A stretch of DNA of 64,000 bases from Niabella yanshanensis. Lineage in GTDB: Bacteria > Bacteroidota > Bacteroidia > Chitinophagales > Chitinophagaceae. The DNA lies in assembly GCF_034424215.1 (NCBI RefSeq), contig NZ_CP139960.1, forward strand, positions 3,720,001 through 3,784,000. The letters run 5' to 3'. The notes under the pieces are model-generated. The model searched no databases and was not told the DNA's origin. It was given only the letters and a program-made list of their open reading frames with translations. Positions 17,429-23,607 of this stretch are shown here, piece after piece; position 1 is the stretch's first letter; each line of letters begins with the position of its first letter. The translations under genes and the position numbers were made by a program.

Positions 17429-20400
17429 ATGGGCAAAACGATTCTTGGACTTGATTTAGGGACTAATTCGATTGGATGGGCGCTGATTCAACAAGATTTT
17501 GATAGTAAAGCGGGAGCTATTCTTGGAATGGGCGTAAGGGTTATTCCGATGTCTCAAGATATTTTAGGGGAGTTCGGGAAGGGGAACTCTGTTTCGCAGA
17601 CTGCGGAGCGAACCGGTTATAGAAGTGTAAGAAGATTAAGGGAGCGGTTTTTATTACGCAGGGAAAGGCTGCACAGGGTGTTGAATGTTTTAAATTTCTT
17701 ACCTCAGCACTATGCGGCACAGATAGATTTTAACAAGCGCCTGGGTAAATTTTTAGAGGAAACTGAGCCGAAACTGCCTTATAATAACGAGAGATTTGTT
17801 TTTAAAAGTTCTTTCAATGAAATGTTGGAGGATTTCAGAAAACATCAACCGCAGATTTTAAAAAACGACAAAGGGGAGGAAAAATTAGTACCCTACGATT
17901 GGACTATTTACTACCTCCGTAAAAAGGCGTTAAGAGAAAGAATAGAAAAGGAAGAACTGGCCTGGATACTTTTGAATTTTAATCAGAAGCGTGGCTATTA
18001 TCAATTACGTGGAGAAGAGGAGGAAGAGCAACTCAATAAATTGGTAGAATTTTACTCGTTAAAAATCGTAGATGTATTGGCTGATGAACCTCAAAAGGGT
18101 AAACCTGATATCTGGCATTCCCTGGTTTTGGAAAATGGATGGATTTACAGACGATCAAGCAAAACACCTTTATTTGATTGGAAGGACAAGACAAGAGATT
18201 TTATTGTAACAACAGATTTGAATGATGATGGTTCTGTAAAAAAGGATAAGGAAGGAAATGAGAAACGCAGTTTCCGCGCTCCAGCTGAAACCGACTGGAC
18301 GCTGATAAAAAAGAAGACTGAACAGGAAATCGACAATTCCCATAAAACAGTGGGTGCTTACATTTACGATACCTTACTTCAAAATCCTAGGCAAAAAATT
18401 AAAGGTAAACTGGTTCGCACTATCGAACGTAAATTTTATAAGCAGGAGCTCAAACAAATCCTGGACAGGCAAAGAGGTTTTCATCCTGAATTACAAAACG
18501 AAGATCTATATAATGATTGCGTTCGGGAGTTATATCGAAATAATGAAGCGCATCAACTCATGCTGAGTAAAAAGGACTTCGTTCATCTTTTTATCGATGA
18601 TATCATTTTTTATCAAAGGCCTTTGCGTAGCCAAAAGTCGTCTATATCTAACTGTACGCTGGAGTTTAGAAAATATAAAGATGAAAAGGGTGCAGAACAT
18701 GTGCAGTACCTTAAAGCGGTTCCTAAGTCTAATCCTTATTACCAGGAGTTCAGGATTTGGCAATGGTTATATAATTTAAACATCTATAAAAAAGACGACG
18801 ATACCAATGTTACGAGCGACTTTATCCATTCAATAGAAGATATTGAAACCCTGTTTGATTTCTTAAATACCAGGAAAGAAATAGAACAAAAACCGTTGTT
18901 TAAATTTTTATTGGAGCAAGAAGGGTATAAAGGAAAACTGCTGAATGCAGAAGTTGAAAAGTATCGATGGAATTATGTGGAGGATAAAAAATACCCCTGT
19001 AATGAAACCCGGACGATGATTGCAACGAGGCTTGAAAAAATTGAGAATGTTTCAAATGATTTTTTGACCAGGGAAATCGAACAGAAAATCTGGCATATTA
19101 TCTACTCAGTAAATGATAAAACTGAGTATGAAAAAGCTTTGAAGTCATTTGCCAGAAAAAATGATCTTGATGAAAATGCTTTCCTGCAAGCATTTAAAAA
19201 ATTTCCGCCATTTAGAAGTGAGTACGGCTCGTTTTCGGAAAAGGCCATAAAGAAATTATTGCCTTTGATGAGAATAGGTAGACACTGGAATTATGACAAC
19301 ATTGAAGGAAAATCGAAAGAGCGCATAGATAAGATTATCACGGGTGAGTATGATGAAAATATTAAAGATAAGGTAAGGGAAAAGGCGATGCACCTTGTTG
19401 AAGAAACAGATTTTCAAGGTTTGCAATTATGGTTGGCTCAATATATTGTTTATGGCAGGCATTCAGAAGCTACCGCGTTGGGTAAATGGAATGCTGCTGA
19501 TGATTTAGAACAGTTTTTACAAGATTTTAAACAGCATTCGCTTCGCAATCCGATAGTGGAACAGGTAATTACAGAAACGCTTCGTGTTGTAAAGGATATT
19601 TGGATTAAATATGGTAGCGGTGAGAAAGATTTCTTTAGTGAAATTCATATTGAGTTGGGGCGGGAAATGAAAAACACCGCCGAAGATCGAAAGAAAATAA
19701 CCAATATGGTTTCAGAAAATGAAAACACCAATCTTCGTATAAAAGCTTTGCTTGCCGAAATGATGAGCGATGTTGCCGTAGAAAATGTAAGGCCTTTCTC
19801 ACCAATGCAACAGGAGATTTTAAAAGTATATGAAGATGGGGTGTTAAATTCCGATATAGAGATCGAAGATGATATCTTGAAAATCAGCAAAACGGCGCAG
19901 CCTTCCTCGTCTGATTTGAGGCGTTATAAACTTTGGCTGGAACAGAAGTATCGGTCGCCATATACAGGAGAAATTATTCCGCTGAATAGATTATTTACGC
20001 CCGAATACGAGATAGAGCACATCATACCGCAGAGCCGTTATTTTGACGATAGTTTTAACAATAAAGTTATTTGTGAAACGGCAGTAAATAAACTTAAAGA
20101 CAATTACATCGGTCTTGGGTTTATTAAAAAATTTGGAGGCACTATTGTAGAATGTGGGATGGGGAAATCTGTAAAGGTATTTAAACAGGAAGCTTATGAA
20201 GATTTTGTAAAGCAACATTATGCTAAAAACCGTGGCAAGCGTAGTAAACTGATGCTTGAAGAAATTCCGGAAAAAATGATTGAAAGGCAGATGAATGATA
20301 CCCGTCACATCAGTAAATATATTTCAGGTGTATTGTCAAATATAGTGCGTGTAGAAGATGGATCTGACGAGGGGATAAATTCTAAATATATTGTTCCGGG

Positions 20401-23268: not shown

Positions 23269-23607
23269 ATGGATTTTGAACGTTTAAATGCCTACCGTAT
23301 TATGTGGGTAATTGTTATGTTCGACCTGCCAACGGAGACAAAAGCCCAGCGAAAGATCTATGCGAAATTCCGCAAGCAGATACTCGATGATGGGTTTTCT
23401 ATGTTCCAGTTCAGTTTGTATATCCGGCATTGCAGCAGCCGGGAAAATGCCGAAGTGCATATACAAAGGGTAAAAAAGATCCTGCCTGCTAAAGGGCATA
23501 TCGGGATACTTAATATTACTGATAAACAGTTCGGGATGATGGAAATTTTCAGGGGAAAAGAATTGATTGAGGCCCCGCTCGCCCCCCAGCAGCTTGAATT
23601 ATTCTGA
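23269..23607 (+). CDS. cas2: CRISPR-associated protein Cas2
   Basis: 112 aa from ATG 23269, which begins right after the cas1 TGA. The ferredoxin-like fold shows in [20 protein letters not shown] and [20 protein letters not shown]. Structural partner of Cas1 in spacer acquisition. Last gene of the cas operon; a terminator follows 34 nt later. Longer open frames reaching back into cas1 are not the gene. Confidence 0.96.

Follow-up and report, generated by a model that had tools for sequence, protein, structure and literature searches.

A RAYT gene carrying its own hairpin recurs on the cas1-cas2 side of type II-C CRISPR-Cas operons in Bacteroidota

The type II-C CRISPR-Cas operon of Niabella yanshanensis contains, between cas9 and cas1, an intact gene for a REP-type transposase (RAYT), and such genes recur in the cas loci of other Bacteroidota. 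Our leading, still tentative reading is that this RAYT is an accessory of the cas1-cas2 side of Bacteroidota II-C operons, which is kept by selection, removable and portable, and which would act on a hairpin within its own gene; we lean to it over the view that the RAYT is a hitchhiker. The window, by which we mean the whole stretch of DNA analysed, comprises 64,000 nucleotides (contig NZ_CP139960.1, positions 3,720,001 to 3,784,000). Within it cas9, the RAYT gene, cas1 and cas2 share one strand with gaps of 2, 5 and 1 nt, precisely as a preliminary description of this DNA had reported, and the co-expression of the RAYT with cas1-cas2 that it proposed is very likely, judging from the gaps of 2 and 5 nt. 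The locus has the gene set of type II-C (cas9, cas1, cas2 and an array). It shares gene order and array with type II-C systems and differs from them by the extra gene between cas9 and cas1 (Table 1). The ORFs from 16362 to the array include no match to cas4 or csn2, and an Rfam search at gathering scores returned no match. The element upstream of cas9 is probably a tracrRNA anti-repeat, and the hairpin between cas2 and the array may be a terminator, given its terminator-like look. Directly 5' of cas9, two small ORFs (16362-17173), the second encoding an HTH_3 protein and the first without a family, are reminiscent of a toxin-antitoxin pair. Within the array a block of ten units is duplicated: spacers 15-24 recur in unchanged order.

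Table 1. Features of the cas locus, in positions of the window.
Feature	Position	Strand	Description
Probable tracrRNA anti-repeat	17310..17330	+	ttgtgaattgctttcat, complementary to 3' part of CRISPR repeat
cas9	17429..21754	+	1441 aa, ATG start; in-frame TTG at 17420; TIGR01865 417 bits, RuvC_III, HNH_4
RAYT	21757..22353	+	198 aa; HUH and single Tyr
REP-like in-gene hairpin	21959..21993	+	Between HUH and Tyr codons of RAYT; inverted-repeat search
cas1	22359..23267	+	302 aa; TIGR03639 304 bits
cas2	23269..23607	+	112 aa; TIGR01573, PF09827
Terminator-like hairpin with A/T runs	23640..23672	no strand	cas2-array interval; RNA fold z -5.6
CRISPR array	23722..26767	no strand	40 repeats of 47 nt, then partial repeat; 39 spacers, 29 distinct

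The best fold match of the window RAYT in the PDB is TnpAREP (4er8), in a comparison that excludes only the families it listed, and the HUH motif and the one catalytic tyrosine of the Y1 fold are present and intact. The score against NF047646 (60.7 bits, E 1.3e-16) lies under the cut-off of 80, so the strict family score failed; we take the match in fold and motif to outweigh it. A REP hairpin, the usual associate of a RAYT, lies inside the gene. Compared with E. coli TnpAREP (PDB 4er8) and other RAYTs, the window gene differs by its place in a cas operon, by the lack of a GT[AG]G tetranucleotide at the 5' foot of its hairpin (the bases before the hairpin are GATAGCAG), and by the lack of the genome-dispersed REP copies of a REPtron: the in-gene copy is alone in the 5.54 Mb host genome, in which no second copy was found at up to 2 mismatches in 18 fixed core bases. 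A REP inside the gene between HUH and Tyr, as found here, is a known trait of TnpAREP subclass 2.4 outside cas loci (PMC6006769), a precedent that counts against the accessory reading. Subclasses 2.6 and 3 are also without GT[AG]G (PMC6006769), and the absent foot would, judged by features, fit subclass 2.6 better. No flanking hairpin pair that could serve as element ends of the IS200/IS605 type was found around the gene, in which it differs from the IS200/IS605 TnpA that accompanies IscB or TnpB; the hairpins listed near the RAYT between cas9 and the array were the in-gene hairpin, the one after cas2 and a weaker overlapping palindrome within the gene. The term single-copy nuclease, used in the preliminary description, holds for this type of RAYT but not for the genome at large, which carries other RAYT/Y1 genes besides the cas-embedded one.

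The arms of the in-gene hairpin, CAACTGATCCAAAGTTT and AAACTTTGGATCAGTTG, are each 17 nt long and 1 nt apart, and fold as RNA into 16 bp with a 3-nt loop (-24.7 kcal/mol, z -5.7). The sister locus L078 has the same stem, in which both partners differ at two pairs. Across 12 relatives, 10 of the 16 stem pairs are changed on both sides and 99.5% of cells are paired, a percentage favoured by the choice of each hairpin as the best of its gene. The covariation score was 0.548 as compared with 0.182 for shuffled data (0/500) and at most 0.189 when the position was slid; this set comprised 12 of the 15 main-group RAYT rows, L172, L179 and L184 being omitted for longer loops or imperfect stems. In-gene hairpins are present in 24 of 29 cas RAYTs versus 15 of 78 other RAYTs, and flanking hairpins are rarer in cas RAYTs, both upstream (4/29 versus 45/75) and downstream (9/29 versus 47/76). 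The covariation and the frequency of in-gene hairpins among cas RAYTs count for the accessory reading. Kinship may explain the association between hairpin and cas setting, since the test on independent pairs was uninformative (7 pairs only, median p 1). Exactly one hairpin copy was counted in 8 of the 14 main-group genomes with a match to the core pattern (G000, G189, G117, G284, G143, G246, G045 and G773). Against the accessory reading, the remaining main-group genomes have 2 to 13 copies (G020 7, G772 3, G778 7, G775 13, G780 2 and G781 3). The genomes of non-cas RAYTs hold 1 (G188), 8, 14, 11, 7 and 0 copies. Five of the seven copies in G020 lie on the cas contig, four of them in tandem in the interval between RAYT and cas1 (L086, G020:C105:2576-2801), as REP-like hairpins with 69-nt spacing.

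A stable fold upstream of cas1 raises the alternative that the hairpin acts in the polycistronic mRNA and sets the ratio of cas9 to cas1-cas2 via processing or ribosome drop-off, the RAYT protein being of minor importance for CRISPR. In agreement with it, single departures from pairing in L107, L077 and L132 are G-U on the sense strand. The departure in L131 is not, and three of four is therefore weak; moreover, the RAYT protein is itself under purifying selection. We consider this reading very improbable.

A RAYT protein search of 294 genomes of the host family gave matches in 82, and the top 11 matches (the window's own included) each lie directly 5' of a type II cas1. The slot between cas9 and cas1 was then classified in 91 loci from 94 cas1-bearing genomes (G006, G270 and the broken-off G279 were left out): the two genes were adjacent in 54 and a RAYT was present in 13, one of which (L144) has a RAYT of another subfamily. 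Other contents were DUF6036 (6 loci), HIRAN (1), DUF6036 together with HIRAN (1) and DUF6155 (1); 11 loci had other or unexplained gaps and 4 had no cas9 in view. The DUF6036/DUF2204 nucleotidyltransferase thus occupies the slot in 7 of the 91 loci (L102, L118, L120, L124, L139, L145 and L051), once with the HIRAN protein. That 54 slots are empty speaks against an accessory. That the junction admits unrelated genes is in line with the main competing explanation, in which the RAYT belongs to a selfish or self-serving REPtron lineage resident in the cas9-cas1 junction, with no role in immunity; it would gain horizontal spread and co-transcription there, and selection and covariation would reflect its own upkeep. 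We regard this hitchhiker reading as a serious contender, although somewhat less probable than an accessory.

Beyond the family, 53 of 345 genomes sampled across the phylum had cas1, and among the 49 loci examined outside the host family a same-strand RAYT precedes cas1 in three (G415, G602 and G472). In a scan of 84,980 named species, of which the best 80 of 571 RAYT relatives were kept, 18 of the 80 adjoin type II cas genes, a proportion that is no unbiased rate because the set was chosen by likeness to cas-embedded RAYTs; the carriers include Paenimyroides aquimaris, Hydrotalea flava, Reichenbachiella agariperforans, Belliella calami and a Paludibacter sp. An insertion confined to this strain, one of the outcomes that the preliminary description had set out as fatal to its proposal, is thus ruled out by the cas-embedded RAYTs of relatives and the recurrence of the arrangement across the phylum. 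Another such outcome, adjacency of cas9 and cas1 in the closest relatives, does occur in L075, L079 and L080 (gaps of 7-12 nt). A search of a phage collection with Cas1 gave 4 weak records. Two nearly identical RAYT genes lie about 4 kb apart, outside cas genes, in Sediminibacterium goheungense (L178).

Position and spacing are strongly biased. Among 37 non-duplicate loci with a match to the RAYT model, the RAYT lies upstream of cas1 on the same strand in 27 (order cas9-RAYT-cas1), downstream of cas1 or cas2 in the same orientation in three (cas1-RAYT-cas2 in L198 and L201, after cas2 in L218), and on the opposite strand in seven. No RAYT was seen beyond cas9 in these loci, most of whose stretches reach about 2 kb past cas9; for a second RAYT match in L152, with no cas9 in view, the side relative to cas9 is not readable. 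Tight spacing is found in separate RAYT lineages (2/-4 nt in L235 and 10/-8 nt in L237), and 16 of 29 cas RAYTs, versus 10 of 78 others, have both same-strand neighbours no more than 100 nt away, with genes in this control called by a simple ORF rule. This strong preference for one strand and for the cas1 side, shared by separate lineages, tells against a hitchhiker. So does the state of the RAYT-less cas loci, in which no RAYT remnant was found except an unlisted, intact-looking stretch of a second RAYT subfamily (B) in L268.

RAYTs of this second subfamily are found at the other end of the adaptation genes. In 5 of the 49 phylum loci outside the family (L280, L283, L284, L286 and L268) a convergent RAYT of the other subfamily follows cas2, and in the first four it separates cas2 from the array. 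Of 150 genomes from the genus of G625, 38 have the cas1 and 25 a subfamily-B RAYT; the latter is convergent and 332-354 nt past the end of cas1 in G625, G749, G504, G669, G643, G692 and G732. The 11 best RAYT-B genomes comprise 7 with RAYT-B near cas1, 2 with it on another contig and 2 without a cas1 match. Two RAYT subfamilies thus converge on adaptation genes, contrary to what a hitchhiker would suggest, and cas RAYTs have been recruited more than once. A broader proposal would make RAYTs a recurrent, portable fourth component of Bacteroidota II-C adaptation modules, with two subfamilies separately drawn to cas1, cas2 or the array and one of them carrying its own single-copy in-gene REP hairpin as a cis target; we hold this to be rather unlikely.

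Repeated recruitment is also seen in the RAYT tree. A tree of 107 RAYTs, with a bootstrap not yet converged (0.953), requires the cas label to change 13 times, and starred branches force at least 7 of these changes. The window RAYT belongs to a starred clade of 18 (97/94) with 15 cas RAYTs and 3 outside cas loci. A single origin of the cas association was rejected (29 cas RAYTs as one clade, p-AU 7e-56), as was a clade of the 15 main-group rows (p 1.5e-6), because the non-cas L134, L168 and L186 fall among them. On a Cas1 tree of 154 loci, from a quick search with SH-aLRT support only, the 17 main-group RAYT loci are scattered, with 14 changes of which at least 9 are forced; they cluster only a little more than in shuffled data (mean 16.4; 10 of 500 shuffles as low). 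This patchiness weakens the accessory reading and is what a hitchhiker would leave. Mantel tests over 14 loci found RAYT distances correlated with those of Cas2 (r 0.49, p 0.0004); the correlation with Cas1 was not significant (r 0.22, p 0.14), and with Cas9 there was none (r -0.04). Strict co-inheritance of the RAYT with Cas1 is ruled out by the scatter and by the non-significant distance correlation. The last outcome that the preliminary description had counted against itself, a RAYT tree that does not track Cas9 or Cas1, is accordingly true for Cas9 and mostly so for Cas1, with Cas2 correlating.

Near the tips, the RAYT accompanies cas1-cas2 and not cas9. Between the window locus (WIN) and L078, identities are 76% for RAYT, 80% for Cas1, 76% for Cas2 and 25% for Cas9; L131 and L132 share 92% in RAYT (over a fragment), 96% in Cas1 and 98% in Cas2, with Cas9 in different clusters; L077 and L107 have 93% identity in Cas9, yet 72, 74 and 79% in RAYT, Cas1 and Cas2. 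Deeper, the companionship is lost (L155 to the window: RAYT 58%, Cas1 49%). Exchange of cas9 is common in these loci: at a Cas1 identity of 70-75%, Cas9 is unrelated in 357 of 489 RAYT-less pairs and in 19 of 23 RAYT pairs (129 cas loci). The RAYT as cause of the exchange is therefore rejected, the exchange being equally common without it. As most moderately similar Cas1 pairs have swapped their Cas9 lineage, the cas9-cas1 junction is a frequent point of recombination in Bacteroidota II-C loci. Such reshuffling with or without a RAYT is compatible with a hitchhiker.

The RAYT is under purifying selection. NG86 dN/dS was usable in 5 of 9 RAYT pairs, with values of 0.14 (WIN-L078), 0.18 (L149-L131, of which L131 is itself broken), 0.07 (L084-L101), 0.16 (L179-L172) and 0.09 (WIN-L155); dS was saturated in the other 4 and in most cas1/cas2 pairs. 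RAYT pN/pS was 0.22-0.30, slightly above that of cas1 in most close pairs. Together with the intact catalytic residues, the range of 0.07-0.18 bears out the earlier view that the gene is not a dead insertion. Synonymous differences of the RAYT are below those of cas1/cas2 in 3 of 9 pairs (0.58 versus 0.76/0.75, 0.42 versus 0.79/0.85 and 0.44 versus 0.75/0.63), as if the RAYT had moved between operons after the cas1 genes split. A hitchhiker would be expected to do so, but L084-L101 has no lower RAYT synonymous divergence. RAYTs have been described as vertically inherited (PMC8049555), in contrast to which the cas RAYT appears to be exchanged between loci. Some copies are broken, 3 of 17 in the main group: by a stop in L077 (cas genes open), by a stop in L132 (cas1 also broken) and by loss of frame in L131. 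These breaks, in L077 beside an intact cas1, speak against an accessory. In L236 (7597-7851), the full gene is directly preceded by a partial RAYT copy with 79% likeness to it; the copy begins at the start codon and stops at the right foot of the in-gene hairpin, as a cut at that foot would leave it, which counts for the accessory reading. RAYT pieces are also present in L166 and L192. Partial copies beside intact genes in these three loci, and the tandem REP copies of G020, are further points for a hitchhiker.

The preliminary description had also suggested a nuclease recruited for spacer capture or array editing. Type II-C systems are without Cas4 and Csn2, and in their place the RAYT, as a nuclease for single-stranded or hairpin DNA, might trim prespacers or cut at the array. 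Its place next to cas1, cas2 or the array, never on the far side of cas9, would suit such a role, as would the correlation with Cas2 and the retention of the RAYT with cas1-cas2 in close pairs that differ in cas9 (WIN-L078). The arrays themselves, however, lend no positive support. An array could be seen in 15 of the 17 loci of the main group, in 7 of the 12 other loci with RAYT-A and in 106 of the 121 loci without a RAYT; the median number of repeats seen is 38 in the main group versus 30, and repeat lengths overlap. There is thus no clear difference in array presence or size with or without a RAYT, and the RAYT is not needed for an array, since RAYT-less loci have arrays too; most II-C loci of the family are without it. 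Duplicated spacers occur in 5 of 21 RAYT loci versus 18 of 102 others (p 0.51), and without an excess in RAYT loci the RAYT was rejected as cause of the duplicated block in the window array. By eye, the CRISPR repeat contains no copy of the RAYT hairpin. We judge it improbable that the RAYT takes part in capturing spacers or editing the array.

Taken together, a hitchhiker is supported by the patchiness, by exchange between operons, by the other genes found in the slot and by arrays that look alike with or without the RAYT. A selected accessory is supported by the cas1-side bias, by operon-like spacing in more than one lineage, by purifying selection and by recruitment on several occasions. 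As such an accessory, the RAYT would be made together with Cas1-Cas2 and, by analogy with TnpAREP, would bind and nick hairpin single strands, a step suggested by known TnpAREP chemistry and the single hairpin copy. The nearest substrate would be the hairpin in its own gene, the sole copy in the host genome, which makes the cas operon the most likely main site of action. There the RAYT might act on the operon as ssDNA or mRNA and so tune or protect its cas1-cas2 half.

A bare association of Y1 transposases with CRISPR is already in print, as 'Y1 Tpase' is listed among 'Putative CRISPR auxiliary genes' in the legend to Fig. 6D of Altae-Tran et al. 2023 (PMC10910872). The section of that paper on auxiliary genes does not mention it, and the listing comes without detail on gene, subtype or position. 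Full-text literature searches, with preprints and most subscription journals outside their scope, yielded no account of a RAYT located between cas9 and cas1. The benefit of RAYTs to their hosts has been stated as unknown (PMC8049555). Repeated ties of a RAYT to Cas1-Cas2, together with a hairpin whose sole copy in the genome lies in the cas operon, make the role of a RAYT directly testable. If the RAYT is a hitchhiker, domesticated transposases would be seen to spread on defence loci; if it helps adaptation, type II-C would possess an HUH nuclease as an accessory on a par with Cas4 or Csn2. Were RAYTs indeed a fourth component of adaptation modules, a functional setting would be known for a RAYT for the first time, and Cas1-Cas2 would have an HUH nuclease partner in a CRISPR type that lacks Cas4 and Csn2.
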